NCBI GenBank assembly: GCA_030062745.1
Contig: CP099841.1
Span: 2,480,001-2,544,000 of the forward strand
Reading direction: 5' to 3'
Source: Capitulum mitella
Taxonomy: Eukaryota; Arthropoda; Thecostraca; Pollicipedomorpha; Pollicipedidae
Length of the DNA stretch: 64,000 nt
Under the pieces are notes generated by a model. The model made no database searches. It saw nothing but the letters and a program-made list of their open reading frames with translations, and was not told the origin of the DNA. The translations under genes were made by a program, and so were the position numbers. Of this stretch, positions 7,868-50,600 are shown one piece after another; position 1 is the first letter of the stretch; every line of letters begins with the position of its first letter.

Positions 7868-10800
7868 CTGAAACCAGGAAACACCAGGTCAGCACCTCCG
7901 ACAGCGTCACAGAAAAGGACAACACGTCCGAGCGAAAACCACCTTACCCGTATAAATTTACAGGAAGCCTCTTTGCATACCAAACCCAAATGACGCACGC
8001 CTGGCATCTTCAGTTCCTCAGTCATTCCTTGTCCTTCGAGAGAAACTTCAGCGTGAATACCATGACCTTGGAAAGGCGTCCCACATTCAAGCGCTGAGTG
8101 AGCTGGTGTCTGACTCACCGTGAACACGGCCTCCGGTGCTCGCCAACGGAGCGGAATGACCCGACCGTCGGCCAGAGTGATGTAGTCGCCAGCGTACTGG
8201 GACCGACTGGGACCCAGGTCACCGACCTTGACCTTCAGGTGGTGACCCACCAGGCAATTGCGGGCGGCCAGGTCACCGTGGACAATGCCAAGAGACTCCA
8301 GGTGTTCCATGCCGGCGGCTATCTGCTCTGACACGTACACCAGCGAGTCCACGCTGTAACGACATTGGACGGTATTAAATAGATGACATGCACATCTCTG
8401 AGTCCAGACTGTAACGACATGGGCCGATATTAAATGCGTCGTACGCACGCCATCGAATCCAAGCAGATCCAGACAGACCAAGTTCAGATAGGCAAGGACC
8501 CCTTCGTTACTCTGTGAAAAATGCCCTGCTCGTAAAATGACTGTTCTCAGTGTTCGTAAGTTAAAGTCACATCGAGTCGGAGGTGTGACAAGAAGGAAGA
8601 TCTTTGGCACCGGTAACTCGAGACAGCTCGCCGTATTACTGGTGAGAGTCACGCCAGCGGAGCGGGAGTGGTGACTCACTCCAGCGCGCCGTGCGGCCTG
8701 GCCGGGTCGTGCGGTGCTCGGCGGAGAAACTCGTTGAGGTCTCCGTTCTCCATGTGTTCCACCAGCAGTCCAGGCGACTGGTCCAGCGTGCAGAGGCCCA
8801 GCAGCCGGGTCACGTGTCGGTCAGTGACCCGACAGAGGGGGCCGGCCTCCAGCCGAAGACAAGCGGCGGCCTCGGCCGGAGCGGCCGGCCTGAGGGTGCG
8901 GGCCGTGGCCAGACGGCTGGGTGCCTGGTACGGACTGGCCGGAGACGAGCGGCTGTGCACCTCGCACACTCGAATCTGAAACACACACACGGAACAACAG
9001 TCATTTGCTACGGCGGCTCGGAACATGCCAATGAACAGGGCACGACTGTGCAGGCTTGGCAAAGAAGGCGTGGAAATGCCTGCGATTTATGGATTTTGCG
9101 GTAATAAATGAACAGGATAATATGTTTTGGAGGTCTTCGTAACAGAACAGCAACAGTCGCCTCCCCACACTGGTGTGACCTCTCCGTATCGTCCCTGACC
9201 GATCCTGTCGCACATTGGACTGACCTCTCCGTATCGTCCCTGACCGATCCTGTCGCCTCATTGGACTGACCTCTCCGTATCGTCCCTGACCGATCCTGTC
9301 CCGCATTAGACTGACCTCTCCGTATCGTACCTGACCGATCCTGCCCCTCATTGGACTGACCTCTCCGTATCGTACCTGACCGATCCTGTCCCGCAGTAGA
9401 CTGACCTCTCCGTATCGTCCCTGGCCGATCCTGTTCCGCAGTGGACTGACCTCTCCGTATCGTCCCTGGCCGATCCTTTCTCGCAGTTTGATGAGTTCGC
9501 CGCTGATCTCGGTGACCCCGGCTCCGGTGTCGGCCTGGCCGGCGCCGCGGTCCGTCCAGATGCACGTGCCGACCACGCCCTGCACGCCGGCAGCCAGCAG
9601 GCGGCGGCGGCGGCCGCCACTGGCGCCGGCCGGCTGCGGCGGCGGCGGCGGGATCGGCGGCGGCGCCGGCAGCAGCTCGCTGATGCTGCACACGGACGGC
9701 TGGCTGCTCGACTGGGTGGTACTGTGCGGCGACTGTCGGTAGTTGGGGTTGTCCCAGGAGCGGGGCGGCGTGCCCAGCACGGCAGGCGTGCTCTCGGCGC
9801 ACGACGGCCGACCGGCGTCCACCGGCACGGCGTACTCGTAGCTCGTGTCTGTGGTGGACAAACGGGACATCACGCACTAAAACATACTGCGATAACTGCG
9901 AACAGAGATGGCCTTTTGCTGTTTGCATTCCTCTTTTTCTGCCTTTTGTCGCTATTCACCACCACTGACCTGTCAGTCCGGCCTGCTGTCGCCGTGTCAG
10001 AGTGTTGTACTCGGAGCTGAGTCGGACCACGTGGCAGCGGTCGTCGGCCAGGTCCACCTTGTCCTCGTCGCCGGAAAACGGTCCGCAGAGCTGGTCGGGC
10101 GGCCGGCAGTAGCCGTGCCGCGGCGTCAGCTGCATGCTCCTGCTGAGCTGCTTCATGTTGCGCGCCAGCGGCAGCTGCAGGGTGCCGGGGCCCGGGCCGC
10201 CGGCCACGCGCCGCCGCCGGCCGGCCCGCACCACATAGCCGACCAGCGCCGAGAGCAGCAGCAGCACCAGGCCGAGCGCGGCCAGCAGCGCCGCCAGCGA
10301 CACCGCCGACTCCGACTCCGACTCCGACTCCGACTCCGACTCAGAATCAGACTCCAGCTCCGGCTCGGCCGAGAGTGGCCCCGACTCGCCAGTGTCGTCC
10401 ACCAGTGACGTCACGATGCCCGTCACGTTGTGACTGGACGGCTCTGTCAGCAAGTGTGACGACCAGCCGTCACCGTCAGTGGTATGATAATATCCCTACT
10501 TTGGGCTGGGTGGATGCGGGTGAACAGCTTACATGGATACTGAGACTACCATTTCCATTGAATGATATCACTACATCACGCTGCGAAAAGAAACGGTTAC
10601 TGAGCATGCGGGATACTCACCGCTGACGAAGGTGACCTCGGAGAGCAGAAGCCACTGATCAGCCGCCGTCAGCTGGACTCTGACGTATTGACCCACTTGG
10701 CGGTACAGCCGGACCTCCAGCTGGCGGCTGTTCTCGAAGATGCGGTCGACCGCCGGCTCCAGGCTCAGTGGGGAGCTCGTGTACTCGGCGCCGTCCACCG

Positions 10801-11508
10801 AGAAGTACAGACTGGCCCGGCTGAACATCTGGTGGCGACGCCAGGCATGGTGGGAACCTTCCAGCTGAGCCATTACCATTCCCGAGAACAAAACATCAAT
10901 GAACTTCCCTTGATGGATTCTGAGGAAAACTAATATGACGAAACAGGACTGCAACAAAAACATACGATTCAGGCTGCTTACCCTGACACCACTGGTGAAA
11001 CGATTGCTGACGTGGAACGAGGCCGACTCCAGTTCTCTGACGGCATCGAACACGAACGTGATGGTGACCAGCTCTCCGGGCCTCCTCCTCCAGCCGACCC
11101 ACTCCGGTTCTGTGGACAGGCGACAGGTGAGTCCTCACGCGGTTCACAGGTCCACCCACATCTGAGCCCGCCGTTAATGGCGTGTAAGTGCAGGGAAGAG
11201 AGAGTCGGCAAAGGCTTCTTTTTGCGGCGCTTTGTTGGGTCGCAGACGCCGCATCTCCATCTAATCGACACGATCTGCAGAACAGACTCCTGCAATCAGA
11301 ACGCCCTCAGCGAGGGAGGGGAGAGAGAATGAGAGAGAGAGAGGAGGAGGAGAGAGGAGGGGGGAAGAGAGAGATGGGAGAAATAGAGAGGGGAGCGGAA
11401 AGAGAAGGGGCAGAGAGAGAGAAAGAGAGAGAGAGAGAGAGGGAAAGAGGGAGAGAGGGAGAGGGAGAGAGAGAGAGAGGGAGAGAGAGAGAGGGAGAGA
11501 AAGAGAGG

Positions 11509-11550
<42 letters not shown>

Positions 11551-11558
11551 CAGAGAGA

Positions 11559-11630
<72 letters not shown>

Positions 11631-14600
11631 AGCGCTCCCTGGGGCTGGCACGGCGGTGGCCATGACCGTGGACCGCCGTACGACGGTCCACCTGAGACGG
11701 CGCCGCGCCGCCCGGCCGGTCCCCGATAAAGCCCGTTCGATTTCGTTTGAGTAACGTAATCCGGCGCGGTTGATGCCGGTCTGTCAAAGCAATTCGGCCA
11801 GGATTACATTTGCATGCCATTTGGGAAATGGCTGCCCGTTTGGCGTGTCGTTTAGCGTGACCAGCCGTGCAGTCAGTTACAGCTGAGTCGAAACAGAGCC
11901 AGGGTCGCGCCGCACACGTGACCCGTCACGGCCAGCAGCGGCCGGCTGCGGCTGTTTGGGTGCGAGTCGTCTGATGACGCCGCGACGGAACAGCCTGATA
12001 ACGGCGCCCCTCGGCGGCGCCGCGCCGGCGCTGCCGCTGACGTCATCGAACCGGCGGCGGAAATGGACAGCGTGCGCGGGCTGAGGTCGCCGGAGACGCC
12101 AGCGGGCGGGGGCGACACGTCCGAACAGGCAGTCGTCAGCGGTCACACGTCCGCCGGAGCCACGCGAGCTGCACTGAGCTGTCCCGAGACAACAGGCCAA
12201 GACACAGGTGCAAGGAAAGTATCTAAGCACATGTTGGCTTTTAATTTGTTTTTAGTTTACTTCGACTTCAAACGACAAAGGATTGAATGGCATTGCTCAA
12301 AGGTGTCGTTTACTGAAAGGGGACCAAGCAAATATAATGAAATGACGGATTACCGTAACTATAAAGTGAAACAGACGAATGCATATCGTGCATATCGTGA
12401 TTACGGGCAAGGATTCACGCGTCACGCATTGTCATTCGGCGCTTTTTCAAACATCACACGTCTAACGAAAAAATGTTCCAGTATTTTTTTCGGGACACCG
12501 TGCTAAAATGCCCGCTTTAGTTTAAAGGCAACAGCATCCAGGTAACTTTTATCTTTTAACATCAGGTAACATCAAATCACCATTATTTTCTCAGCGAACG
12601 CGATCTAACTGAGGCCACTTGAAGTATTCACGCTCTTCCGGGAGGACAGGGCTTACTAACTCATCAGGGTATTCGCCTGTCTTTGCTGAACCGTTTGAGG
12701 TAAAGCCATGAATCCCTATGACACTCCCCAACTTTCCTTTTCTCCTACAACGTAGACATTTCAGTTTGCATACTCTTTCATGAGCAGACCAAGAAGCGCT
12801 CTTTTAGGAGGCATGTTCGGTCGTTTTCGCAACGTTGGAGGCTACGATCAATCTGTTTGCTATTCGACGCACGGACGTAGAAACGAGAGGAGCGGGGGCC
12901 AATAACATCCCCACTTTAAGAAGATTTAGCATTAACCCTAAACGTCTTTGTTCTCCCTCACACACACCTTTCAGATGCTCTTGTGCTCCTGATTTGACCT
13001 TGGGAGATCTAGACGACTGTGAATTGCTTTGTGACTTACAGGTGTACAATGCGTTTTTTGACATTTAAAACATGGCGCATCGTATCAGGATGGATCTAGC
13101 AGATCATTCCTTTGTGCCCACAAATTGCAGTACGCACTAAGGTAGCATTTCAGCTTGGTAAATAAGAGCAAAAAGATGCATATATAATATCATATACAAA
13201 GAAGGTAAATACACATGCAAAAAAATATAGTTCCGCCTTCCACTTTCAGACTCCTGATATCGCCATTCTTCGATAGCGTCTTAAAAAAAATGCACTTGGG
13301 TCACTAGCACCGGAGTAGTTCGATAGTATCTCAAAATGCACGTTGGGTCATAATAAATATTCTAAGCTCGCCCTAAACTCCATAAGACACCCACAGAGCC
13401 AAGAACGCAACAAATATTGATTGCCCTCATTTCGAGGTTTCGGATGCGCCACTGATGTAGGCTGTGAAGTATACCACCAGGTCGACGTAATGCCAGACTC
13501 TCAGATCTCAGGGGTATACGTTCACAACATAACCAACGATAATACTTTCGCATACAGCACAAAGTTTAAGAAGCACTCCCTCCTCCGTGATTCTTGGTTC
13601 ATAGAGCCCGCCGCTGCAAGGTAATTCTTGTTTTATTGCGCTTGCAAAAGATAAAAAAGGTTGCATTGTTTCGTTTCAGGTCCTTTCAGACCGTAACGGT
13701 TTGGAAAAGTACAAAACTGGATGCAACTGAAATTGCCCTCAATTTTACGGCCCTTGGAAGCACTAATGATAGCGTCCAAATATGCCTTGACCTGAAATAT
13801 TTGCATTAGACCCTTGGGTTTCATTTCCATCCATTTTTGAAAACATTCTGTCGACGATGCTCGATCAAAGGGCAAGCCATAAATATCCCATCAATCTCCT
13901 TTTTACAGTTCCTTTTGAATTTCGACGTCTTGGATTTAAGGACTTAAAGAACTTTACAATAGGTGCCATGGATTCGTTTCAGCTATCTTCCAGCAAAATC
14001 AGACAATTGGTTTCCAAGATATCAAAGGAGCCGAATAAGCCCTCCAGCGAGATTAGCAACGAAATTGAGGCCGGCAGGAATAGAGTACAGACGTTTTATT
14101 TTTATGTGGCTGATATTTCAGCTATCACACATCTGCTACTAGTTATCATTCCACACCGAATGAGGGTTTCTGTAAGTTTCAATGCATGTCTCTTCGACGT
14201 AAATAACCAAAAATCATCTGAATACCAATGGTTATCTGAATATCATCAGACGAGACAAAGAGGTGTGTGTGACCGGTGTAACAAACGGGAGATAAATCTG
14301 TGTGCTCTGGTGCACTTGAATAGTGTGCATGTTCGCAGAAAAACAACCACATTTGTCATCTTCGGAAACCTCTACGAGGCCCTGAATCACTGCAAAGCCC
14401 ATCTAACAAGAACATTGATCACTGTCCTTGTCTTCGAGCGCATGCAAATGTAGGCGCAGAAATGCATTTGCATTTGCAGAGAACATTCTTCTCAGCGCGA
14501 ACACACGAGTATAAGCGCACATAGCTGTATAAATGATGGCTTAATGTCTTCGAGAAGGATTTGATCCGCAAGCTTTCTTTGGTCACTAGATGTAGGCTGT

Positions 14601-17600
14601 ACCAGTTCTTACAATGTACGCACAGTACTGCCAATGTTTGGAAAAATTTTGTCTGTCCTTACTAAATGTCTTTTAACCTCTCTCCTTCTCCCTCTTTCTG
14701 TTTCGCCCTCTCCACCCTTTCTCTCTCTCCTCTCTCTCTCTCTCCCTCTCTCTCTCTCTCTCTCCCTCTCTCTCTCCCCCTCTCTCTGTTTCTCTCTCTT
14801 ATTCCTGACCCTCTGCCTGCTGCAGACATACAACGTGGCGGAGCGGTGCCGCTCCCTGGTCAGCTCAGAAGCGTTTCCCGGCGATCGGTCTCGCTCCACC
14901 GGAAATGGCTATCGTTCACGACTGGCATTTTGCGCTCGAAATGGCAGTCCGCTCACCTCACGCCGGCGACCAGCAGTCACCGCACTGGAAGGCCAGCTTA
15001 TGTCATCGCGCAAACAAAGCCTTCGTCGACGTGCCGTCACTGCCTCGCTTCTGACCGGAAGCAGACGGCTCAGATGCGTCGTCATCCTTCGTTTGGAGCA
15101 TGGCTGGAGATCGTGGGAGGCTGGGGATCTTGAGCCCCGCACCACTTTTCAGAAATTATTAAAACTAGTCTCATGGCATTAACTGGAGAAAGAGCAGTCT
15201 AAAATCCAAGCGAGACCTCTCAACAATTCAACGGGAAATTTTCGGCCATAGTTACCCAGCCCTAGTGCCGGCAGCTAATGGGGGTAGCCTTCCTCTCGCC
15301 TCCAACTCTTGGTCTCACTGATGAAGCAAGGTGCCGCCACAGATCAAGCTGCAGGCCTCACCACCTACAAACCCAACAACGGACCCTGCCGCACATCCTG
15401 TCGCTTGTCTGGCTTTAAGTCCTGCTATTAACCCAGCTAATTCCAGCCCCGAACTCAGCTGTAGACACTGTCAGACGCAGTTCCAGACTCAGCCACAGAC
15501 TTGGCTAAAGACCAAACTGCAAACCTGTCCCCAGACCCGGGCCCAGATCCAGTTCCATGCGATCCAGATGTCGCCGGACCCTACCACAGGCCCAGCGCTA
15601 ACACCGGTCCCGGCTCTGAGGCCAGACGACCGGCAGACGGCGGCCGCGCACGCTGCCCGCGGCCCCTGCCCCTCTCTTTCGTTCGCCAATCGCAGTCGGC
15701 AACCCGCACATCATGTAAAATGCAGCGGCGGCGGGCGGCCGGTGGCGCTCTGCGGCTCTCGTCGCCGGCAGCCCGCCCTCGGGCGGCGGGCCCGCCCTGA
15801 GACGGTGGCCGGAGCCTGTCAGCCACGGGCGCCCCTCTGACGCGCCAGCACCCGCCGGAGCGAGCGCAGGGGCGCCGGGGCACGTACTTGTGACGTCATC
15901 CTCGGCCAGCTGGCCGTCCGTCAGCTGACCCAGGCCGTCCGCCATGACCTCGGCCGAGGCCGTGCCGTCGTAGGTCAGGTCAGGTCGGCTCTGGTCAGGT
16001 TTGTCCATGCTGTAGCTCTGAATCCCGTCTGGAAATTTAGACCGATGTTCAGTTCCGTTGAGATATTGATGAGAAGCGAGTATATGCTATATGCAATTAG
16101 ACATCCATGCTTTAGTCAATAATGCATTCAAAAACATTAGAGCGGCATTTCTGCATGAATATTTAATTTTCAATGCGCCGCATGCGGGCAAAGTGCGCAG
16201 GTACTGATATGCGCAGTTAAGATCGGGAGGACTGCTGCATCTTTACGTTCTGCGGACCAACAAGCCACAAAAGTAGCGGGTGACGGTTCCTCGGCCTGTA
16301 CGCAATGACTGACACGTACTGCGCATTTGTGTGCCGCAAAATATGTGAGGTATAACATAATGTGATGTGGCAACATGCCATGGCAGTATGACATACCTGT
16401 AAACTATTTTTTAACATTGTGTTGCGTTCGTCTTAATCGTGTGCCTATCCACAAAAGCCTCAAACAAACATATTTGTCACTTTTTATGTATATTTTAACC
16501 TGGATCCAGCACCCATGCGCCCCAGTTGTTCTAGTGAGTCTCCATCCTGCGTCGAACTGTGACTGCTAGGCCTGCATACAACTCTGCTCTGAGACAGACG
16601 ATGTACTTCTGTGTATCGCATGCCTGCGCACGGACAGCCGCACAGCTTTGCCCTGGGGCAGATGGTGTAACTATATCTACCATGTGCCTGTGTACAGACA
16701 GCCATACAGCTCTGCCCTCAGACAGACGGTGTAACTCTGTGTACCACGTACCTGTGTACAGACAGGCGTACAGCTCTGCCCTCAGGCAGACGGTGTAACT
16801 CTGTGCACCACGTACCTGTGTACAGACAGCCGTACAGCTCTGCCCTCAAACAGACGGTACGCGGGTGCTCGCTGCGGGGCACCAGGCGAACCTTGATGGC
16901 GATCAGCGGCGGGTTGAGCGGCATCTTTTGCGCCAGGTACGAGTTGACGTTGCCGTCCAGCAGGGTGTGGCCGGAGGCGTTCCGGTAGGTCCTCCAGCCG
17001 GTGTCACCGTCCCGGCCGGGCCGCCAGTACTGCAGCGAGTACCGCTCGGCCCACTCCCTGCCGCGGCCGTTGCCGAAGCGGCCCTGCGTCTCGGCGGCGG
17101 TGACCACGGTCGGCCGGCCGAGGTCGATCTGCAGGAACTCGTGCACGTCGGCCGTGATGACCGAGAGGGGGCACCAGGCACCGCCACGGTGCTCGGTCCG
17201 GATGCGGCCGCTTTGCGGACCCACGCTGTTGTCGTTGTGTGCCGAGCTGGCCGAGATCTGACTGTCCGAAATGTCGCCCGACTCCATGCCCAGAGGCCGG
17301 TCGCACTGACCTGAGGTCACAGAAGGTATACCAAAAATCACGTTGGTCCAGGGGCAATGTTACGTTCACGTCGGTTACACTGGCCTGAGGATACACGGGG
17401 TACACCAGGCAGATCACGCTGACCTGGGGTCATACGAATTATACCATGTGGTCGCACTGATTTCAGGTCACACGGTGTACTTCAGAGGGTCATAACGCAG
17501 AATATACCAGACGGTCATCGTCACCTGAGTTCAAAATGGATACACCTTCGCTCGCAAGTCACATTGGCCTGGGGAACTTGGGGAGGAAAATTGGGGAACC

Positions 17601-18188: not shown

Positions 18189-18549
18189 CGTTCGCTTGAG
18201 GCCTGAACGATAGCACGGGCAGAGGTAACTCGATCCTCTGAAAAGGGAAATATCGCGCAAGTAGACAGGACATTTTCCTATACAACTCCTCGTCGCTCGG
18301 ACGCCATTCATTTTCCTCGTCGCTGCCAAATGTCTGTTCTTATACACAGAACACAGTTTCTACATCACCTGATCCCAAGGTCTGGCAATCGTGGGAACTC
18401 GTGGAATCGTGGGATCATCAAAACGTTTTTGTTTGCTGAAAAATATGCCTTTAAGTATGACATAGTTATTGGACCTACTGACATAATTTCTGCACGGTAT
18501 TCATTTATACAAAGGGGTCGGTAACAGGGAAAGGTGTTCGCAGGGGCAC

Positions 18550-24985: not shown

Positions 24986-25142
24986 TGTGGCCGCCGATAC
25001 ATCAGACATGTTTCCGGCCTGTCATTCGGTAAACAGTGTTTGCATGTTACACGTAGCCCTCTTGACCTGCTACTCTTCCTCCTGCTTAGGGTTGATTTGC
25101 TGTGGCCGACATCACTAAGCCAGAATACTAGACAGAATGTTG

Positions 25143-26407: not shown

Positions 26408-26412
26408 CTCCG

Positions 26413-26447: not shown

Positions 26448-26449
<2 letters not shown>

Positions 26450-32085: not shown

Positions 32086-34526
32086 CCCGCCCACGACCGT
32101 CGGTCCGTTTCGAGCACGGGCGACTGCGGGGGGGGGGGGGCAGTTGACTGCCCCCGCTAACTCACGAACGGTTGGCCGCACGGTAAAATTAAGCACACCG
32201 TTGGAAAGCTTGTGACGAGTAGAGCTCGAAACTGGGCTCATTTTTAGTTTTAGATAATATGTAAGCCAATTTACGCCCTATATATGTTTTCTCATAGCCG
32301 ACTGCATGAGACCGAGAAATGGCCTGAATCTCAAGGGCTGTGACTAATAACGCATAGGTAAAGGCACCAGCGCACAAGTAAAGGTCCCCGGACGCCGATA
32401 CACGTCTCCTTTCCCCAGATTTATTCAATCTATACGCCGAAATGTTGAGTTAACCCGTCCCCGACTGGGGAGGGGGCAGTTGACTGCCCCCCTGAGATTT
32501 TTCTGGGATTGCGAGAGAACCAACAAACACAGAGTCACGAAACTTTGTGGACCTTTTGCTCCATCAATTTTACATCTCGTGTCAAAATTTTGACATCAGG
32601 TCACGTCAGGCACCTAACCTAGGTCAGGTCAAACAGACCTATGTCCAAAAAAGTTTAGCGCCCTGTAACGTTTTCGCAAAACAAGATATCTCAATAATAC
32701 CTTCAACGATTAGTGATCGTGATAGACGCAACAAATCTACGATCTCAGATTTTTCGGAATTTTCCGGGTCATTGACCTCAGGTCATGCCCATTTTTAAGA
32801 CATATCGCCGTTTTTTTCGGAAATTGACGAATATTTCATAACATTTTTAGTGTGGAGTAAAGCAGACATCTAGTTACCGTCATTGGGCAAAGTATCAGTG
32901 ACTTCCAGCCATTGACCTGAGGTCAGGTCACGAATAACTGTAGTGAGCCAAAATGTACCACCGTCAAAATCGACGATGAATTACTCAGAATGGGTAAAAA
33001 ATTGCAGAACTAGCTTGCACAGACGTAATTAATACCAGGAACCTCAAAAAGTTTGAAAAGTAGCATATTTTGGAAATAAACAGGCTCTCGCGAATAAAAC
33101 TCCACCAACCTTGTAGATTGGTAACTAATCAATTTTTCCAACATTTAAGCATGAGAAACCATCACAAGAACCACAAAGATCAATGAAATTGACATAGATC
33201 GTCTTTTTTCGCGACAATAAAGGAACGCTAAAATTAGTTCCCGTCAATTTGGTACCGCATACGGCAGCGGCGCACACCGACAGCTGGCGCGAAAATTACC
33301 GTGTCTTTAACTCAACGTTTCGGCGTATATATTGAACAAATCTGGGGAAATTAGACGTGTATCGGCATCCGGGGACCTTTACTTGTGCGCTGGTGCCTTT
33401 ACCTATGCGTTATTAGTCACAGCCCTTGAGATTCAGGCCATTTCTCGATCTCATGCAGTCGGCTATGAGAAAACATATATAGGGCGTAAATTGGCCTACA
33501 TATTATCTAAGACTAAAAATGAGCCCAGTTTCGAGCTCTACTCGTCACAGGCTTTCCAACGGTTTGCTTATTTTTATCGTGCGACCAACCGTTCGTGAGT
33601 TAGAGGGGGGCAGCCAACTTCCCCCCTCCCAGTCGCCCATGTTCGAAACGGACCGACGGTCGTGCGCGGATTAAAGACACGGCAATTCTCGCGCCAGCTG
33701 TCGGTGTGCGCCGCTGCCGTATGCGGTACCAAATTGACGGGAACTAATTTGAGCGTTCCTTTATTTTCGCGAAAAAAGACGATCTATGTCAATTTTATTG
33801 ATCTTTGTGGTTCTTGTGATGGTTTCTCATGCTTAAGTTTTGGAAAAATTGATTAGTTACCAATCTACAAAATTGGCGGAGCTTTATTCGCGAGAGCCTG
33901 TTTATTTCCAAAATATGCTACTTTTTCAATTTTTGGGGGGTTCCTGGTATTAATTACGTCTTTGCAAGCTAATTCTGCAATTTTCTACCCATTCTGAGTA
34001 ATTCATCGTCGATTTTGACGGTGATACATTTTGGCTCACTACAGTTATTCGTGACCTGACCTCAGGTCAATGGCTGGAAGTTATTGATACTTTGCCCAAT
34101 GACGGTAACTAGATGTCTGCTTCACTCCACACTAAAAATGTTATGAAATATTCAGTCAATTTCCGAAAAAAACGGCGACATGTCTTAAAAATAGGCTTGA
34201 CCTTAGGTCAATGACCCGGAAAATTCCGAAAAATCTGAGATAGCAGATTTGTTGCATCTATCATGATCACTAATCCCTGAAAGTATTAGTGAGATATCTT
34301 GTTTTGCGAAAACGTTACAGGGCGCTAAACTTTTTTGGACATAAGTCTGTTTGGCCTGACCTAGGTCAGGCACCGGATCTGACCTGAAGTCAAAATTTTG
34401 ACACGAGATGCAAAATTGATGGAGCAAAAGGTATACAAAGTTTCGTGACTCTGTGTTTGTTGGTTCTCTCGCAATCCCAGATCTCAGGGGGGCAGTCAAC
34501 TGCCCCCCCCCCAGTCGGGGACGGGT
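32086..34526 (-). mobile_element. Outer piggyBac-like MITE, interrupted by a second copy
   Basis: The outer element is 32,086-32,449 plus 33,675-34,526 (about 1.22 kb). It is bounded by TTAA at 32,082-32,085 and 34,527-34,530, with ends beginning CCCG as in the piggyBac superfamily (the right end carries one extra base). Subterminal palindromes of the GGGGGCAGTTGACTGCCCCC type lie near both ends. Its internal GTTGAG-TTAA-AGACACGG site was used as target by the inner copy. No transposase is encoded, so it is non-autonomous. Confidence 0.75.
32454..33670 (+). mobile_element. Inner piggyBac-like MITE inserted into a copy of itself
   Basis: A 1,217-bp element flanked by TTAA on both sides (32,450-32,453 and 33,671-33,674). 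Its 853-bp left part (32,454-33,306) is the reverse complement of 33,675-34,526, and its right part (33,311-33,670) is the reverse complement of 32,086-32,449. It is thus a second copy in opposite orientation. Each copy carries an open frame of about 80 codons beginning MNKSGE near the internal TTAA, nearly identical in both. With only two recent copies this is not evidence of function. Confidence 0.8.
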
Positions 34527-34530
34527 TTAA

Positions 34531-37890: not shown

Positions 37891-37982
37891 CTACACGCTG
37901 CTGACCAGGGTCTTGCGGACCGCCCGCACGTACTGCTTGATGGTCTGGCAGGCTGGGCCACGGCGCAGGCTCGGGTCGCAGC
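37891..37982 (-). CDS. WW/CUE gene exon L, C-terminus and stop
   Basis: Acceptor CCGCCGCAG|GC restores frame with exon K. Encodes CDPSLRRGPACQTIKQYVRA, then VRKTLVSSV and a TAG at 37893-37891. The RRGP motif continues the octad pattern, which supports the exon assignment. Confidence 0.82.
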
Positions 37983-40900
37983 CTGCGGCGGACAGCCGGA
38001 ACAATGGACTGACCGGCCGCCCTCTGGCTGGTCAACACGCAGTCCAGCAACACTGGAGTCACGTGCGCTCTGACAGGTTAGCTAGGTCACTTCGTGGAAA
38101 TGCGTGTTTTGCGGCACATCAGTCTCCACGTTGTCCGTGATGTTTTCGGTTTAATGCTACTCCGCAGATTTCGTAATGACCCTAAAAATGTCTGCAATAA
38201 AGGCAATGACTGCAACTTTCGCATGAATTAAAATACCATGGATCGCAATTCCGGCCTGGGTTTAAATGGCAAATGTTCTTCTCTGTCATCTACTTCTGCA
38301 GCACTGTGTGAAGCTATGAACAGTTCTCCGATGTTTTTCAAATTTTCCGACTTAGGAAAAGACTTCCGTCATAAAAATGTATGGCCCAACTTCTGCAGAC
38401 TGTGTGAAGCTATGAAGTCTCCGAGTCAATTCGGACAAAAAAGACTTGCGTCATAGAATTTGTTGCCTCTTTTTTAAGCAATGAATGTGCAGGAGTGAAG
38501 AGTCAAATACGAAGCAATCCAATACCAAGACTGCATTGGCGATGTCCAGAATGGGCCTAAAACAAAAACGAAAACAAAAAAGCAGGGAAGCTGCAATGCT
38601 GTAAACTGTGCGCCTTGTGAACAGTCCAAGCCTATTCCAGGACAAATCCAGTCCAGGAGGTAAATTTGTCCTGGAAGCAGTGAAAAAGGCCCATCAATCA
38701 ATGTTTCAGGCCATCGGAGACATCAAAACTGGCTGAGCTGTGATGTTGCAGACGTAAAGGGAACATGGTGCAAACGTAAAGGGAAACTTCCTGAAGAAGT
38801 AACCCAAGGCCGTGATCAAGGTCGTGAAATTAAAATCGGCAAAACAAGCAGATTCACAGAAGTTGCAATCGTTTTACATGTCGCACGAGGCTGCAAAGGA
38901 TAGTTGCAAGCTTCAAGCGCCTTGCTTCATTACTTTGGGTATCCTACGTACCATCTTTCAAAACTACTGACCACCGGCCTTTTGCATCTGGTCATTCGCA
39001 GCTCTTGCCAAATCCATGGCATGACCTTGGCAAACAGATCATATTTCAAACACGACATAATGGGAGATTTTCAAGTTCACAAACATGCTATAGAAATGGG
39101 CACAGCCTTGATACTAAAAACTCCAAGCTAGTAAATTAAATAAAAGCAAGTTATTGACCGAATCACACAGAGCTGTGTCCTGACGTTAGTCGGCCCCCCT
39201 GCCGTCAGTGCATACCCCTGGCGTTAGTGGGTCCGTCAGTACGTATCCCTGACGTTATTGGGCCGGAGCGCAGCCGCAGGTTTGGGCCGCGTCACCCTCA
39301 GTTCGTACCCCGGTCGTCAGTGGGCCCAGCAGTACGTACCGCGGTCGTCAGTGGGCCCAGCAGTACGTATCGCGGTCGTCAGTGGGCCCAGCAGTACGTA
39401 CCCCTGGCGTTACTGGGCCCAGCAGTACGTACCCCTGGCGTTACTGGGCCCAGCAGTACGTACCCCGGTCGTCAGTGGGCCCAGCAGTACGTACCCCTGG
39501 CGTCAGTGGGCCCAGCAGTACGTACCCCTGGCGTCAGTGGGCCCAGCAGTACGTACCCCTGGCGTCAGTGGGCCCAGCAGTACGTACCCCTGGCGTCAGT
39601 GGGCCCAGCAGTACGTACCCCTGGCGTTACTGGGCCGCGGTCCGGAGCGCAGCTGGAGGTCTGGGCCTCGGCGGAGGTCGGCATCTGGCCCGTTCCAGGC
39701 GATGTAGTCCGATCTGGCAGGCAACCGGCACAGGTGAAAATCACCAACGACCAACAACAGTCTCAAAAAGAAATCCAACCCGGATAAAGCTAACCACCTG
39801 CGATACCAAAGCATTCTCGTCAAGCCGTAACACTTTTCCATTACGCCATTTTTACGTTTAGTGTCCTCACTGGATTACACGCCCACAGTTTTTCCTTCCG
39901 GAACAACAAATCGGGCCATTTTATAACCGTAATATATAAAATAAGACCGTCTTCCGACAACGAACACCAATTAAGGCAAAATTATTTAACTCAAGCTAGC
40001 AACGGATGAAAGTGTTAACGTAATTTTCCAACGGTAGATGCATTCGAGATGGTGACTATACTCGACAATGAAAGAGCAGAAACATCAAGTGCTTCCTACG
40101 CACAGCTTTGCAGGTCGGCGGAACCAGGAAGTGTTTGCTCCACAAGCGGAATATAAACACCTTATATGTGCCCAAAAAATCAGCAAAAGTGAAATTTACA
40201 CAAACGTTCCATTCCACCGTCATCGCTTATTTGCTCCCTGAAACGCCAGTTATATCTACTGTATATAAAAGATAACGAATTTCACCCCAGTGTTCTGCTT
40301 AATCGGTGTCTGAGTTTGAACTACAGGCATTTTGCGTTTGACCTTGACGCAGAACGTTTCCCGGTCCCGTGCCGCCCCTGCCCGACTCACAGCAGGTTGG
40401 AGGCCTGCGGTCCTCGCGCCATGCGAGGGTCGGGGCCCCTGGCCGCCGTGCGGTACTTGGAGCGGTACTCCGGCACAGTCTCCCGCGCGCTCGAGCTGGA
40501 GGCCGAAAACGACAGTCAGACCGGCACAGGCCGACACCGTCAGACTTCAGCAGGTCCATCTACGACTGGCTGAGAATGGAATACATTCGCGACCTGGTGC
40601 CCTGGACTGACACTCACCCGTCACAGAGTTCACCTGGTCCCGCTCTGACGGCTGAAAACCGCATACATCCCACATCTGGTGCCCTGGAGTGACACTCACC
40701 CGTCACAGAGTTCACCTGGTCCCGCTCTGACGGCTGAAAACCGCATACATCCCACATCTGGTGCCCTGGACTGACACTCACCCGTCACAGAGTTCACCTG
40801 GTCCCGCTCTGACGGCTGAAAACCGCATACATCCCACATCTGGTGCCCTGGAGCGACACTCACCCGTCACAGAGTTCACCTGGTCCCGCTCTGACGGCTG

Positions 40901-41593
40901 AAAACCGCATACATCCCACATCTGGTGCCCTGGACTGACACTCACCCGTCACAGAGTTCACCTGGTCCCGCTCTGACGGCTGAAAATCGCATACATCCCA
41001 CATCTGGTGCCCTGGACTGACACTCACCCGTCACAGAGTTCACCTGGTCCCGCTCTAAAGGCTGAAAACCGCATACATCCCACATCTGGTGCCCTGGACT
41101 GACACTCACCCGTCACAGAGTTCACCTGGTCCCGCTCTGACGGCTGAAAATCGCATACATCCGACAACTGATGCCCTGGACTGACACCCACCCGTCACAA
41201 ACTTAACCTTTTTTGCTCCCTGGCAGGTGAGAACGGCATACATCACGCACTTGGTGCCCTGGAGCGGCACCCACTCGTCACAGAGTTAATCTGGTCCCCT
41301 CTGGCGGCACAGGTCCCACACCTGGTGCCCTCGAGTGACGGCCCACCGGCACAAGCGGTGTTTCATATCTCCCAGGTAATGCTCGAGCAACACCTAAAAA
41401 AACCGCATCACCTAACAAACAATAGCACCACCTGAAAAAACACCAGGTGCCGCATAGACAGGACTACGTAACAGGGTCTGGACACAATGCCTACTTCCTA
41501 AACCGATCAAAATTTTTTTACCAAACATTCTAATATGCACAATATAAAGGACGATTCTGTAAATGTAGGCAACCAAGTGCCTGCATCATTTCA

Positions 41594-41648
<55 letters not shown>

Positions 41649-44600
41649 TAATGTGCCGGAATAGGGACATACATAACAGACCGTTCTTGAAACCGCGTTT
41701 CATTGCATCTCGTTGAGCTGACAACATGAATGGAGGGGTAGCACCTGAAATTTGAGTTTTTTACGGAGGCTTTAGAAACTTTGAGGCAGACTCTAGAACC
41801 TTATGAACGTTGTGTGAAAGTAAGGGTCCTGGGACTACAAATCCGCCAGAAATGGAGCTCCACAACGCGCCCTAACGTTGTCCAGGGTTTGAGAACGGAT
41901 TTTGATTTGGCTGTTCCTCAGGATGTAGTCATTCCTGTGCCATTCTTTGCAGAATGGGAATTAGGTACGTTGCTACCTGACAACGCACACATTAGCATGA
42001 TGGCTATCTCACGCAGCTAATAAAGTGATGACCGCGTTGCATTAACATTCTGTACAGGTTCCACACATTAAAAAGCAGGATGGAATCAACAACAAAACAA
42101 CATACGCTTAAAAAGGAATTCGGTCTTGTCTCGTCTCAATCTTGTCTCCAAACAGTTCTGACTTCAAAATTCTATAGTCTCGTTAGAAGGTCAGAAGACG
42201 CAAAAAGTAGGCGCACGCACATACTAATTTTTCTTTGTACGTTTTTTTCATTTTTTTGTAACCGATTTTGTGAAGGGCCATTAGACAGGAGCAGACAACT
42301 AATGACGTGATCTTCAGGCAAAAGTTCGTCGGGCTGAAGGTCGCAAAGCGATAGTTTGTCGGGTAATAGTTCGTAAAGTCAAAAAATCGCCAGGCAAATG
42401 TTCGTCTAGGACAATAGTTCGTCTCCGTGACAGTTCGTATGGACAAAGTTCGTCCAGGCCAAAAGTTCGTGTAAGACAAAAGTTCGTCTCGCCTACGTCC
42501 GTATCGGACAAAAATTCCGTCCAGCAAAAGTTCGTATAGGATATATCTTCTAGCACAAGAGTTCGTCCAGGACAGGAGTTCGTCCAGGACAAGAGTTCGT
42601 CTGGCAGAAATTCGTTTGGGAGAAAAGTTCGCCAGGGACAAAAGTTCGTCCAGGGCAAAAGGGCAGATTAGGTTAGGTTACGTGACTTTTTAAGGTCCGT
42701 TCCTTTTCCGATACGAACCTTTCCCGACACGAACCTTATGTTTGCGAACTTTTGGTTACAAACTTTTTTCCTTACGAGCGTTTTCCCTTATAAACTTTTT
42801 TCCTACGAACCCTTTCCATACAAGCCTTTTGCTGTACAAACCTTTCCCATTTGCGTGACAAACTTGTCCTAGACGAACTTCTCCTCTTGACGAACTCTTG
42901 TTCTAGACAAACTTCTGCATGACGGACTTTTGTCCCTAGACAAACTTTTACCCCATACGACCTTTTGCCTTACGCGAACTTTTGTCCTAGACGAACTTCT
43001 GCGAGAACTTTGGCCCCAGACGAACCTTTGCCCTAGACGAGCTTTTGCTTTTGACGAACTTCTGCAAGACGAACTCCTGTCGTAGATGAACTTTTGTCCT
43101 CGACTAACTTTTACCCTCGACGAACTTTTTCCCCTACACGAACTTCTACCCGAAAACTGCGTGACTACGTAGACTGTACATCAACTAACTGAGAGGAGTG
43201 GCTACGTTCCTTCGCGAATTCTACTATGGGTGGGAGGTAGTGGTGTCAATGTTCAGTGGTGCCAGTCAATGCCAAAACCAGGGCCCTTCACGCCTAGCCA
43301 AAGCCCGGTTTGGACTCGGCTGGCCCCAAGCCGGGCCACTGTCCACAGCGCTTCATTTTCCCATTGACACCGCTCAAAAAGTTGGGCCCGGACGGGGCCT
43401 TGCCGTAGGATCGTTGGTCCCGGCCCTCACCGGTCCCGCAAATTCCCTAAGACACCTCTGCTGGAGGCTCCCATTGTTCAGTGGGCTCCCACCGAGCGAA
43501 CACACAGCGAAGAGCAGGCATCCTGTACCTACGGCAGCAGTTTAAACCTAAAGATAAGGGCTCAGTTTGGCGCCACGCGCTGGACATGCTTCAAGCCGGC
43601 GCCGACCTCTGTAGTGGCCGACTGGAGGGCCATTGGAGACGCCGAGGACGAGGTCGCAAACCATCCTACCGCTCAACCGGAGGCGCGCAGCACCGCGCCC
43701 GGATTTCTTGCGGGATTTCGACTTCTGGCGCTCGGTAAACCTGGCCTTGCCAGTGTACCGAATGGCCACACCGGTGGTTACGGTTATCCAGGACGAACAG
43801 CAGACAGTGGCGGCCAGCCTGGACCAAGTGAGGGTTCTGCGGCAAGCAGTGAGTGGCCGTCGCCATCGTTTCGAGCAGTTTTGGTCTGAGATACTGAAGG
43901 CCGAAAAACTGCAAATCGGCGAACTCTGGCTGTCGAGAACGCGCCCTCCACGCGACTGGATGAAGGCACCGAGCTTCACCACACGGCAACGTCAAGGGCA
44001 AATGCCGGTTCACGTATCCGACGACCGTGGACAGCCTGGGAAGCAGTTCGGAAAACTGGCATTTTGTAGGTGAGGACAAAGTCCTGGCTTAATCCGAGCT
44101 GGCAATGACCCATGCGACCTTGCTGCAACCGAACGCACCGACGCCCACTTCAGCCTGAACTCGGACCGGCTGAGGCTCCCCGTGCAGATGCTGCAGGATC
44201 GTTGTGGTGGACAGGATGCCTTCAAAACCCTTCACGGCGTCATCCCATTCTTCAAGGAATCAAAAAGCCGGCGGGCCATGCTGATGGATGCGTGAAACTT
44301 CTTCGCATCCTATTCACCATCCCGGCTACAACATACACTACAGCGAGAAGTTGAAGCACACTGCGTCGCCTAAATAACACCTCAGGCCAACCATGACCAA
44401 GCTGCTTCTCAATCCCATTGTCATGTGCGCGACCTACGGCGAGAACGTCCAAGTCCTCAATTGGGTGGCGCTCCTCCGGGAGTAGGTTGGAGCGACTCTG
44501 CAGTGAGTGAACGTGTTCGGCATTTTTTTTTAGTACGTTTTAGGGCATGGGAACAAAGCCGTGTGTCGGCCCTACGTTTGCTCATCACATGTATCGTTCC

Positions 44601-47600
44601 TGTGATTCACTGGAACAATGGGCACCTGACATTTGCTCGCGAACCGGGCTCGACATGTACCAGCACTGACACTTCTGATGACTTTTGTACCCTTTTTGGT
44701 AAGTTCTCCGTGCCCGCGTAAATCATTAGATCCAGAACATTAGCTTCGAAGCCAACTGAAGTTGACTGTCCCGTTGCGTAACTGACAGAGTGTGATGGCT
44801 AGCAAGAGTTATGAACATTTAACCCGTTGAGGAGAACGAGGAAATGTAAATAAATAGGTCATACTGGCATCACTGACACGTTTAGCGTTTTACATGAAAA
44901 GCAAAGTTTTTGGTACTGGAAACTAAAGTTTTCGGAATCCGGTGAGTTTATTTTTACTTTTTGAGGGGAAAGGGTAAGTCTGAACATAGCATCACCTGGG
45001 ATTTTTCAAGAGCTTCACACATGCCCACCAGTCAGAGACTTTACCTGGTCCCCCACTGGCAGCCTATGTCCGACACCTGGCGTCCCGGAGTCGGCCTCAC
45101 CCGTCACAGATTCCACCAGGTCCCCCTCTGGCAGCCCACGTCCGACACCTGGCGCCCCGGAGTCGGCCTCACCCGGCGCTGGCGGCTTCGCGGGCCTTCT
45201 TGCTGGGGCTGGCCAGCGGGCTGACGGACGTGGCGTCACTCGGCGGCCGCGGGCCGCGCCGCGGGGAGCGCGGCGACGTGTGCTTCGGAGACGGCACCGG
45301 CATCGTGTCCGTCCCGGCGGCGTCACTGCCGGCCCGACGGACGGGGGGGTCAGACGCAGACAAACAGACGGACGGGGAAGACTGACGCAACGGCACGGCC
45401 AACACTGACAGCCGCCGGAGACACGCGCCGGCTGCTGCCCCCATACGATCGCGGAAACATTCTGTTACGCCCATGATGATGGCTGGAAAGAATAAACTAG
45501 AAACAGTCCCACCTACAACTCCGAAAATGTTACGCCAAATAAAAACGCCGCCAAGACGCGCTCGCATGCACACGGAGACACGGCCAGGTGAACGACAGGG
45601 ACGCTCAATCCCCACGGTCAGAGTGCCGAAGGCCTGTCCTCCGTGCTCGGCCATGTTCGGCCCAGCGGAACAATGCAAGGGGGCGGTCGACAGCGGCCGC
45701 TGTCAGCCGGACGGCAGACAGCGATGATCGTCCGAGCTGCAGCGGCCGCTGGCGCAGCCTGGACAGACCACGGGCCGTGCAACAGTGGCCTCCACCCGGA
45801 CAATGCGAATACAACAGCCCGCTATATTGGGGCCCGCAGAATAATGGCAAGGTGAAGTGCATGACCGGAGCAACTGCAGAACAAGAGGAAGTTAGCAAGA
45901 CAACCGTATGTTATACCGTATCTTATCGAAGACTGAGTGCGCACAAAAACTGTCGGCCCCAGCACGGAGCGAATCCTCAGGCAGATTATTTGAAAATTTA
46001 AGCTGTGGATGCAGAGATGTCACGCCGAAGTTTTAGAACCTCCTATTATAATGTTTTGCAGTGCACAGACAACGGAAAATGTCTTGCATGCGGACTGACG
46101 ACTGACAAAGGTCTCTAAGAAAACATGACAGAGGGGGAACCAATTTGGATTGCGAAGGACACCGGATAAATCTGTCCAGGTTTCTTATGCCAGTGAAGAG
46201 GTTAACCTGGGCTCCTCAGCATATTGAAGAGGGTACTGGCGATAGTTTAAAACACTCCGTCCATAAAACGGACGTAGGATTTTGAGCATGACGATGCTGT
46301 CTCGGTTCCTCAGGACAATGAGGCGTCTCACTTCAGCTTCTCAGAGCACTCCGGACAGACTGACCTGGACCGCACAAGACGCCGGTGAGACCTGACCAGG
46401 AAACCAGACTGCCTGACCTGGCGCGTACGGACGGCGAAAGCGGAGACTGACCTGGGAGGAGAGAGGGAGGAGAGAGAGGAGAGGAGAGAGGGACGGCGGC
46501 GAGACTGACCTGGGCTGGGCGGCGGTGGCGGGCCGGGAGTCGGTGACCGAGTCGGCCTCCTGGCGCTCCACCATGTTCTCCAGCACGCTGCGGGCCTTTT
46601 CCAGGTCGTAGCCTGCCGACTCCAGCGCCAGCTTCATCACCGTGGCCGACACGGAGGGAAACTCACGCTCCAGGCTGTCCCGCACTGCCAGCAGAGGAAC
46701 GGCACAGTGGACCGCCGCACTGGCTAAGCATGGTATCTGTCACGAGACCATAAATGTGCTGGGATTTCGGCGCTGTCTCTGACGCACTGCTGTGGTACAG
46801 GACAATTACACTTAACGTCGGCAGACGTGATCAGTTTTATTGGGTATTAGGTATTAGTTAAGCAAAGCTTCCAGCCGACCCAACTTTATTTCTCAGGCCA
46901 GATGCGTCCGGTCAGCCAACTACCGAGAGAAAATCTCATCGAGTGCAACAGCGCAGAACATAGGAACACAATCTGGTCTCAATTATTCTCGCTTAATGGA
47001 TTGCAAAAATGCACACAGCTGTGTGCTTCGCTCGATACCATACAAACCAGAAGTGCAACAAACGAAGATGCTGAGTACGCAACAGCTATGCCAAGGGTGG
47101 ATTGGCCCTGAACCGTTCCTTCCAACTCCAGGCCAAGGTAAAGTCAGGGCCACCAGCCCAGACCGCCACCAGCCTGGCCCACACCTGTCCCAACTCTGCA
47201 ACGCCGGCGTCAGTCGCCCCACCCTCAGGCCGGCTACCCACCCTGCTGTCGGTCGGCCTCGCACAAGATCCGGGCGCGCGGCGACGGCTGCGGGCTTTCC
47301 GAGCGCCTGGATGCTGACCACGTCCCGCTGGTGGCGCAGGTCGAACCGCGCCGGCACCACCGGCGTCATGCTCTTGTCGTAACCCATGCCTGCCGGCCGG
47401 AGCGCGCGGTGGCCTCTCAGAACGGGCCGCTCGTTTCCCTGGGCTGCCCACTGCTCAGCCCTCCAGGCCGCCCGGACCCCTGGGCTGAGCAGACTGACGA
47501 ACGGTGACGTCTTCGACAGCCCAACTCATCGGCGGCAAACAACAATGACGTTTTGGCGTTCAGTACAATACCAGAAGTTATCTAATGCACCGAATTTTCG

Positions 47601-50600
47601 TTTCTCGAATGGGCTTTCCGTACCGACCCCTGTGGACTACAGCGCTGAATACGTTCCTCCGCACTAATGTTCAAACACTTAGTCATTTGTTCCACAAACA
47701 AAAAATTCACACCGCGGCAAAAAAGTACGTCGGTCTGTGCTGCTTTCATTAAATGACAGTAGCAAACCTGTCACCACCATTCCCCGCAAAGGTAAGGCGA
47801 CAATATGCGACAGTCCTCCTCCGCTTCCCACCAAATGGCAGCAGCGGACGTCGGTCCCCTCTGCTCTCACCAGGTGGCGCCGGAGGCGGCGGCGGCATAC
47901 CTTTGAGCTGGTCGCCGGCCTTCTGCACGCTGTTGTCGCAGTTTGTCAGCACGTCCAGCAGCAGTGCCTCGTCCGCCTTGGGGAACACCGACTTTAGGTA
48001 CCTGGATATCCGCAGGAGGACGGTTAACACCGGGCGAACGGCGACTTACTTTTTATAATGAACTGAACTCAATCACCCTGGCGTCCAGCTAAATATTTAT
48101 AAATGCAGCTAGTGAAGCAATTTGACAAAAACAAAAATTTACAGGAATTCCAACATTTTCAGATATGCTACTAAATTTCTAATGAAATTCTAGTGGGCCG
48201 TTCATTTTATATACAGTTATCGCAGTCAATTCATCACCAAACCACTGATTCACTCCGTTCACATTACCAGAGGAGCTATCCGCATGCATCATGCAATCCA
48301 CTTGGCAGTATAATTACCCCGGTGTTCAGTGCAGCGCAACACCCTCGCCAATCGCTGCCCGAAACCACCTGTAAACGTTACAGTGCTGAGACGCGCTTGC
48401 ATTCGCAGGCGGACAGTGCATGCGGTCTGGTCTGCGGGCGCACACAGCGCGCGGTGCGGGGAGGGCGCATGCGCTACCGACGGCCGGGCGCGGGCGCGGG
48501 CGCGGGCGCGGCGGAGGCGGCGGCCTGCGGGGACGCCGGACCATCGCTGCTCAGACGAGCGCGCCCACCGCCGGCCGCCAACCTAACAGGCTCGGTACGA
48601 CGATGAATCAGGCCGCTCTACGTCTGCGACGGAGGATGGGCCCGTGCGACATCGGGCGGCGGCGGCGGGTCGGGCCCCGGCCGGGACCAGCGGGCCCGCC
48701 GCCAGGGGACGCCGGGCGAGCGGAGGCGGCGCGCGGCGCCCACATTGACCTGAGCTTCATTTTGGGCGACGAGTGCGGTCTGGGCCGCGGGTCGGGCCGC
48801 GGCGAGGCGTAGCCAAGCACGGGCGACGGCCAGGAGGCGGTGCCGCCGCTGGGCGTCGAGCCGGGCCGCGGCGAGCCGGGGCCGGCCGCCGCCGGCGCCG
48901 CCAGCGGCGGCGACATGCGGTATGACGGCGGCGACGGCGACGGGCGGCCGCCGACGCGCGGGGAGCCGCCGCTGCCGGCGGCGGCGACGGCGGCCAGCGC
49001 GGCGGCCCGGAAGGCGGGCGGCGTGCCGAGCGGGCCGGGCGTCACCAGCGGGTGCCGCTGCACCTGCAGCGCCGAGATCACCACGGCCTCGCGCTGGTGG
49101 TACCTGCGACCAGGCCGGGAGGCCGTCAGTCACGCGCACGGCAGACAGCACGGCAAGCCACGCCCTCGTGCGGGTGCGGTGTTAGTGAGCCGTGGCGACA
49201 TGCGCGCGGCGCCGGCCGCCGCCTACCTCTTGAGCAGCTCGCGGATGCGCTCCTCGGAGACGGTGGGGAACATGGCGCCGATCTTGGTGGCCGAGTCGTC
49301 CGAGTCGGTCGACTGGTTCGGGTCCGGGTCGGCCTCGGTGGCCGGCGGCGAGACGCTCAGCGCGGCGATCACCACCTCCTCCCGGCTGCTGTACCTGCCG
49401 GCCGGCGGGGCGCGCGCCGCGTCACCCGGGAGCCGCCGCCGGGAGGGAGCGCGGCTCCGGCCTGCGACCTTTCACTCCGGCCTTTCATTCCGCTGCCCGC
49501 AGCTCGCACATCACCTTAGCCAGCATGGGGATCACAAGTCCAAATCATGGAGTCAAAGAGGATGTCACTAGGGAAACAGGATGCCACTATCGCCCTAATG
49601 GTCACAACCCACCACGTCGGCAGGTCACAAGTGACTCACCTGGTGAGCAGGCCAATGATGATGCGAGGTTCGATGTGTGGGAGAAGGGGGAGCTCAGACG
49701 TGACTCACATGGTGGGCAGGTCGCCGATGACGTGCAGCTTTATGTGTGGGGGGAGACGAGCTCACACAAGACTCACTTAGTGAGCAGGTCGCTGATGACG
49801 TGCGGCTCTATGTGGGGGAAGAGGGCGCAGATGCGCAGCGCCGCCTCGCCGCCGTCGGCGCCCCGCTCTGCCCACGGCTCGTCCCAGCCGTGCGATGCCG
49901 CCGAGCTGCTGACCACGCTGGCCGCCTGCCGACGAGCGGGGCGGCGTCACCGGCCGCAGGCGGAGCGGCGTCTCACGGTCCGCCAGCCGCCCCGGAACAC
50001 ACAGGGGGAGGCAGCCCGGCGGTCCGGCACTGGCAGACTGAGATCAGTGGTGCCAGCGTAGCGTGTCTCGTCCGCCAGCAAACGGCACGGAGATACCACC
50101 ACTGTAGCAGCATTGTGACCTGACTGTCAACGGTTCACGTGCGGGTTCACGTCAGTCATGTCGGTGTGATGCGACATTATTAGCACCCCACAACAGAACA
50201 AGTCAGTGCTATCCGACTTAATCCGTGGAAGGCTCCATGATACCACGGCATGTCTATGCACAGCACCACAGTGCCACAGTCTGTGGGCTGAGCCCGCTGG
50301 GCAGCGCTCACCGGCGCCTGGGCGTGCACGGCCAGCGGGCTGGCACGGTGCGGCTGCGGCGCGTGCTCGTCCCGTGGCCGGGCCGAGCCGGCCGGCCGGG
50401 TCAGCGGCGACTCCGGCAGCGGCGTCTGCGCCGCGGCACCCGGCTGCGCCGACGCCTGGTACCGCACCGGCGGCGACGGCGGGTACGCCTGCTGCGCCGG
50501 CTGGCCCGGCTGCTGCGGCTGGTATGAGGCGTGAGCCAGCGGCGGCGTGGCCGGGTACTGTGGGTGAGGGTATGGAGCATGGGAGTGTGGCGTGGCTGTC

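Follow-up and report, generated by a model that had tools for sequence, protein, structure and literature searches.

Mirage-type tandem arrays at donor and acceptor exon edges in the genome of the barnacle Capitulum mitella

Here we describe a group of tandem arrays located at exon edges in a 64,000-nucleotide stretch of the Capitulum mitella genome (contig CP099841.1, positions 2,480,001 to 2,544,000; this whole stretch is hereafter called the window), the units of which contain an exon edge together with its splice site. Two genes of the minus strand are concerned: a discoidin-domain receptor kinase (DDR), with 10 exons from about 18190 to 7600, recognized by its Pfam discoidin and tyrosine kinase domains and matching best two Amphibalanus amphitrite proteins (61% and 58% identity), and a gene encoding a WW/CUE protein, with 12 exons from 51360 to 37894, similar to proteins of Pollicipes pollicipes (73% identity, covering 39% of the query) and of A. 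amphitrite (59% identity, covering 87%). The arrays belong to an already named phenomenon, the "mirages" of amphioxus.

For the array analysis, exon ends were placed by protein homology, independently of the repeats. Pfam and the A. amphitrite DDR proteins support the junction RIGQGRYGE/IRVCEVH after DDR exon 7, in the kinase P-loop, and the junction CLRAELYGCLYT/DG after DDR exon 2, in the discoidin domain (slashes mark exon edges throughout). The Pollicipes and Amphibalanus orthologues support the WW/CUE junctions at the arrays, DLLTK/YSSREE and SNARG/CDPSLRRG, and the orthologue junction from exon 11 sets the first base of WW/CUE exon 12 at 37982.

A first-pass annotation had placed four arrays at 5' splice sites of these genes, and had proposed that each unit carries the end of the preceding exon with its donor and that unit length and sequence differ from site to site. 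All four arrays are detected by Tandem Repeats Finder (TRF) where expected (Table 1); reading the units in register confirmed the end of the homology-supported exon and its 5' splice site within them, and both length and sequence are distinct at every site. The 45-bp unit of DDR exon 7, present seven times, consists of 37 nt of exon, encoding the P-loop RIGQGRYGE, followed by the donor GTCAGT and 2 nt; GTCAGT is found in six of the seven units, the last one reading GTCACA. The 64-bp unit of DDR exon 2 joins 43 nt of exon to the donor GTACGT, kept in 2 of 4 units: the distal donors have decayed, copies 3 and 4 reading GCACAT and GCATGC, so that a donor is not present in every unit, as had been claimed. 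At WW/CUE exon 3 (exon C of the annotation) the unit holds 42-49 nt of exon and the donor GTGAGT; TRF reports 1.9 copies of 68 bp (49690-49818), while the third unit, more diverged, was read by eye. At WW/CUE exon 11 (exon K) the donor GTACGT follows 18 nt of exon in the unit, with GT kept at 10 of the 12 positions checked, and TRF reports 10.9 copies of 31 bp (39299-39636) inside the full array. The donors at 9969, 9450 and 46509 read GTCAGT, with a C at position +3, where the consensus usually has A or G.

A minisatellite next to the donor of CIDE-N exon 1 had been listed as a weaker relative: an array is indeed found near this donor, which was placed by eye, but it begins about 5 bp into the intron and its unit lacks the exon end.

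Since the exon part of the unit is conserved domain sequence in DDR exons 2 and 7, in WW/CUE exon 3 and in the kinases described below, copying proceeded from exon to intron; the same direction is presumed for WW/CUE exon 11, where conservation of the final codons is lower. None of the arrays read includes the splice site at the other end of its intron. A search of the 477 Mb of the genome (16 contigs, the window lying in C3) with the DDR exon 7 array and its exon end, in which common words were skipped, returned two matches only, its own locus and a second DDR copy. On this result an introner or transposon origin seems unlikely for this array, the one searched genome-wide.

Similar duplications, overlooked in the first-pass annotation, are found at the acceptor side: in DDR they affect exons 2 and 9 (at 17310 and 8353, respectively), and part of exon 10 is copied into intron 9, where the acceptor itself is unmatched. 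The exon 2 array is weak in the window (scores of 13.5-15.5 in the self-alignment scan described below) and scores 40 in the second DDR copy, which also contains the exon 9 duplication (score 17.5). Acceptor arrays were also found outside the window, in three paralogous kinases (sampled loci L055 and L056 on C16, L057 on C6) whose exons are 97-98% identical. Their intron preceding the exon of the HRDL catalytic loop ends in an array of the 33-bp unit CTGACCTCCCTCCAACAG/TACATCCACCGTGAC, made up of a CTGAC, which we take to be branch-point-like, pyrimidines, AG and 15-18 nt from the start of the exon. Counted by 30-nt unit match with at most 7 substitutions, the stretches read contain 13 copies in L055, at least 29 in L056, whose array, also detected by TRF, continues up to the limit of the sequence read, and 17 in L057; these arrays exceed the observed donor arrays in span. 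A further acceptor array outside the window, at L032, mirrors the donor arrays, and donor cases occur on other chromosomes at L036, L062 and, weakly, L074.

Table 1. Exon-edge duplications, related repeats and array-bearing exons in the window (positions of the window)
Feature	Position	Strand	Details
DDR exon 7	9451..9848	-	ends in P-loop GQGRYGE; Pfam PK_Tyr_Ser-Thr, 5.5e-61
DDR exon 7 donor array	9176..9485	-	TRF 45 bp x 6.9; first intron base 9450
DDR exon 2	16816..17310	-	discoidin domain; Pfam F5_F8_type_C
DDR exon 2 donor array	16577..16858	-	TRF 64 bp x 4.4; first intron base 16815
WW/CUE exon 3 donor array	49620..49825	-	68-69 bp, 3 units; first intron base 49776
WW/CUE exon 11 donor array	39206..39667	-	31 bp; first intron base 39618
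WW/CUE exon 8 donor, 14-bp copy at 58 bp	46443..46514	-	weak, score 14; first intron base 46509
Two 73-bp copies from WW/CUE exon 9 donor (45172)	45031..45175	-	87.7% identical
82-bp array in WW/CUE intron 9	40594..41308	-	8.7 units; 64-78% identity to 45031-45175
DDR exon 2 acceptor array	17293..17472	-	degenerate; copies 74, 113 and 151 bp upstream; units TGTGACCTCAG/GTCAGTGCGACC
55-bp tandem duplication across DDR exon 9 acceptor	8328..8435	-	first exon base 8353
DDR exon 10, 53 bp (7799-7851) copied into intron 9 (7881-7933)	7799..7933	-	82 bp spacing; 90.6% identical

The second DDR gene lies in opposite orientation about 77 kb upstream (G000:C3:2405000-2415000; loci L002, L005 and L006). 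Its aligned exon pieces are about 96% identical to those of the window gene, with pS 0.029 and pN 0.017 over eight of nine shared exons, while the large introns cannot be aligned; it could be an inverted paralogue or a misplaced haplotype. The arrays of the two copies occupy matching sites and are built of different unit variants: the exon 2 units differ, and exon 7 has seven units as in the window, though the second copy may be a paralogue rather than a haplotype. Within the exon 7 array, mean identity between units at the same position of the two copies is 94.0%, against 91.3% for other pairs and 92.0% and 91.6% within each copy; this comparison gives no sign of unit homogenisation (concerted evolution) in the exon 7 array since the copies split.

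The first-pass annotation had suggested a process favouring duplication at exon-intron junctions, and had called for a comparison of tandem repeats over 5' splice sites with chance and with 3' splice sites. We made this comparison on places chosen regardless of repeats, namely exons of the tyrosine-kinase domain (153 matches) and of the myosin head (86 matches), from which we took 30 kinase segments of more than one exon, a further 20 single kinase exons and 12 segments of myosin; kinase segments were picked by exon adjacency before their sequence was seen, followed by 20 of the remaining single exons. Fit of open frame and splice signals solved 34 kinase and 20 myosin introns, and 4 of 7 introns of flanking genes were kept. 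The edges of the 20 single kinase exons, some from genes already sampled, were set by signal score alone. The total is 78 donors and 78 acceptors; L055-L057 being paralogues, and L026, L028 and L050 likewise by their look, independent events are fewer than rows. Nine kinase introns with no convincing junction were excluded (L027, one in L031, L037, two in L039, L043, L044, L046 and L051), and no tandem duplication among the best five per locus lies over their approximate edges. The three excluded flanking introns likewise have no matches at the edges tried. Two myosin introns (the first of L076 and the first of L077) were also excluded, and five pairs of non-adjacent myosin exons were left out.

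Duplications were searched by a self-alignment scan with periods of 15-250, and an edge was called covered when a duplication extended at least 5 bp to both sides. On shuffled sequence a score of 12 let through 1 segment per 20 kb and a score of 14 none; in 92 kb of block-shuffled sequence no segment was found at score 13. About 7% of the 264 kb scanned is tandem-duplicated, against 0 in the 92 kb of shuffles.

Donors and acceptors of the sample are covered about equally often, 3/78 (L036, L062 and L074) and 4/78 (L032, L055, L056 and L057), respectively (Fisher p 1.0). Coverage does not peak at the edge: 60 nt into the intron it is 5/78 on the donor side and 6/78 on the acceptor side, making 11/156 positions against 7/156 edges, while 60 nt into the exon it falls to 1/78 and 0/78. 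Taking the 156 sites jointly, 5 are covered both at the edge and at +60, 2 at the edge only, 6 at +60 only and 143 at neither. At exon offsets -40 and -60, a single one of 312 sample positions is covered, and 4/80 in the window. The window behaves similarly, with 5/20 donors and 2/20 acceptors covered (p 0.41), 6/19 and 2/19 at +60, and again no peak. The edge is thus simply the point where intronic coverage drops off. Random rotation of the duplications within genes leads to the same conclusion: 7 of the 39 window edges tested are covered when 5.1 +/- 2.2 are expected (p 0.27), and in the 34 kinase introns (68 edges) 2 are covered when 5.5 +/- 1.8 are expected (p 0.99). Repeats therefore show no excess over 5' splice sites in the sample, relative to either chance or 3' splice sites, and the proposed preference for 5' splice sites is not borne out.

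These features are those of the mirages, minisatellite-like tandem duplications of exon-intron boundaries described in amphioxus, at first in Adh3 (Canestro et al. 2002, cited in PMC3087553) and subsequently in globin genes. According to that account, either boundary may be affected, AG/GT signals occur in many units but not in all, BflGb6 has its mirage at an acceptor, with 6 and 3 units in two haplotypes, and BflGb9 at a donor (PMC3087553). As in the barnacle, both boundaries and several genes per genome are involved, many units carry a splice signal, and unit length is specific to the locus (10-72 bp in Adh3). The systems differ in that one is found in a crustacean and the other in cephalochordates, and in array size, up to at least 29 units in the barnacle against 3-6 for BflGb6. 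Amphioxus clusters are also reported as unstable in length and as possible seeds of new introns, RT-PCR (reverse transcription followed by PCR) suggests that regular splicing is left undisturbed, and concerted evolution within the cluster is reported for BflGb6 (PMC3087553). Splicing, length polymorphism and somatic instability have been shown for the amphioxus mirages, while the barnacle arrays are known from their sequence. The barnacle arrays fit the mirages in spanning exon-intron boundaries, in occurring at both of them and in the partial retention of the splice signal; the DDR exon 7 units show no sign of concerted evolution between the two copies.

A partial likeness is offered by the variable number tandem repeat (VNTR) of intron 18 of human ABCA7, which starts at the canonical donor of exon 18, repeats a 25-bp unit 23.7 times in the reference and yields, through the donor of the next unit, an isoform amounting to 2 +/- 1% (PMC5954066). 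A minisatellite opening an intron and including the canonical donor is shared by the four donors of the window, by L036 and L062 and, weakly, by L074. The VNTR starts at the GT, with no exon end reported in it, and concerns one locus and the donor side only, whereas the exon part of a barnacle unit measures about 15-49 nt.

Known cases of intron gain, those of Hellsten and of potato RdRp (PMC4974935), likewise involve a tandemly duplicated piece of exon that includes splice signals, the extra copies being spliced out; the same source cites the 24-bp AGGT multiplications of fission yeast (Zhu and Niu). Barnacle arrays, by comparison, lengthen an existing intron at one end, and no new intron was seen in them.

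Introner elements, too, are repeats that sit in many introns of one genome and carry splice signals. They form one dispersed family, whereas each barnacle array has its own sequence, derived from its own exon.

The reading in which we have good confidence is that the arrays are mirages produced by common short tandem duplications, those crossing an exon edge being tolerated since splicing can still rely on the site next to the exon; the barnacle mirages would most likely be a harmless side effect of frequent local duplication of DNA. Short tandem duplications, with units of about 30-90 bp and some later amplified, would arise freely in the genome, possibly by slippage or unequal exchange. Some of their breakpoints would fall a few dozen bases into an exon, so that the unit spans the exon edge and its splice site. 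Duplication of a donor would leave the extra copies 3' of the first donor, and duplication of an acceptor would leave them 5' of the last acceptor. If the exon-proximal copy is the one spliced, the mRNA is unchanged, and the event would be nearly neutral and unseen by selection; the copies may later drift, expand or decay as intronic minisatellites, while duplications deeper within exons would alter the protein. Tolerance had been offered in the first-pass annotation in a different form, namely that any copy can be spliced. The general idea fits, and is supported by the RT-PCR of amphioxus; "any copy" has to be dropped, because protein homology requires the exon-proximal one.

Some observations weigh against this reading. 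Most of the variation among units of the DDR exon 7 array falls in 11 of the 45 columns and avoids those of the P-loop and of the donor (10/408 against 19/132 cells), a bias that plain neutral drift does not predict and that could result from conversion by the exon copy, from constraint or from chance in few events. In WW/CUE exon 3 the donor of the third copy scores best, 12.3 against 7.5 for the homology-supported first copy, so that donor strength by itself would not single out the first copy. The length of the ABCA7 VNTR correlates with skipping of exon 19 (PMC5954066): arrays are not always inert, and can affect splicing without being maintained for it. The window is also richer than the sample (7/40 against 7/156 edges, p 0.010); the window having been chosen for the feature, we treat this excess as post hoc, although a local excess may still exist. 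Finally, the two-copy repeat of L036 is not listed by TRF even at score 30 and is identified by a scan score of 29.5. Scan scores are weak also for L074 (15.5), for the WW/CUE exon 8 donor (14) and, within the window, for the acceptor of DDR exon 2 (15.5).

Among other explanations, maintenance of the extra splice sites for a function, either as decoys binding U1/U2 or as sources of distal-copy isoforms with added peptide units (an in-frame 15-aa P-loop in DDR exon 7, an 11-aa HRD-loop in the kinases), is in our opinion unlikely. It would account for the conserved donor and P-loop columns of DDR exon 7, for the strong third donor of WW/CUE exon 3, and for frames open through all seven exon 7 units in the second DDR copy and through the last two to three kinase units. 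The window exon 7 array, however, is frameshifted at unit 6, more distant kinase units meet stops or shift frame, units of 64, 68 and 31 bp are not multiples of three, the DDR exon 2 array has lost its distal donors by decay, and the kinase fold would probably be disturbed by an added P-loop or HRD motif. Similarly doubtful is a broader proposal, that widespread barnacle mirages, some of them with 29 or more complete modules of a 3' splice site, are functional in part, through positional splice choice, leaky or regulated use of distal copies, and array lengths tuning isoforms or expression and thereby constraining the exon-like part. In-frame coding repeats were rejected as a candidate explanation, only the 45-bp unit of the four arrays being divisible by three and frames breaking in the window DDR and in the distal kinase units.

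Highly improbable, given the parity of donors and acceptors in the sample and the lack of a peak at the edge, is a transcription- or splicing-linked mutational process, such as R-loops at exon 3' ends, preferentially duplicating donor junctions. The window, with four clear donor arrays in two genes and more donors than acceptors covered, may seem to favour it, but that difference is not significant, the longest arrays found sit at acceptors, and amphioxus mirages occur at both boundaries (PMC3087553). Intron gain from tandem duplication carrying splice signals follows a known model (PMC4974935, PMC3087553) and agrees with the AG/GT found in units of DDR exon 2, at both ends, of DDR exon 7 and in the third unit of WW/CUE exon 3; it is nonetheless quite improbable, since the introns concerned already possess, beyond the array, a splice site at their other end, new introns are not seen, and the units of WW/CUE exon 11 and of the 33-bp kinase arrays lack AG/GT at the junction. 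As to an assembly artefact, with repeats collapsed or stuttered, tandem repeats are error-prone in assembly, one amphioxus mirage was misassembled in the genome draft (PMC3087553), and the second DDR copy, given its low pS, could be a misplaced haplotype. Units differing by substitutions, loci on multiple chromosomes, and the different unit variants at the same sites of the two DDR copies make this scarcely credible.

No report of mirages in crustaceans, of so many units at an acceptor, or of a rate per splice site was met in the open-access literature, where no search was aimed at the word mirage. The present data extend mirages from cephalochordates to a crustacean, provide a first rate, about 4-5% of the splice sites in the sample, and test the targeting of splice sites by mirages, with a negative answer. 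Arrays in which nearly identical splice sites share one exon context offer natural experiments on the choice of the spliceosome among equal sites. For gene annotation they are a hazard, as copies of domain codons sit within introns.

The WW/CUE gene has other repeats as well. The one at the exon 9 donor overlaps the exon by just 3 bp. Kin to it is the 82-bp array close to the 3' end of intron 9, as if a single array had been split by later insertions. Exon 7 of the same gene (47250-47389) has a one-base frameshift relative to the Pollicipes orthologue, either an assembly error or a polymorphism. Elsewhere in the window, arrays of 17-bp units of the AAAGTTCGTC type, followed by their inverted complement (GACGAACTTTTG), occupy 42390-43145 and 60793-61626 and resemble a foldback element, while a large inverted repeat recognized by eye at 32150-34530, with pieces 78-79% similar downstream of the window, is perhaps a foldback transposon.

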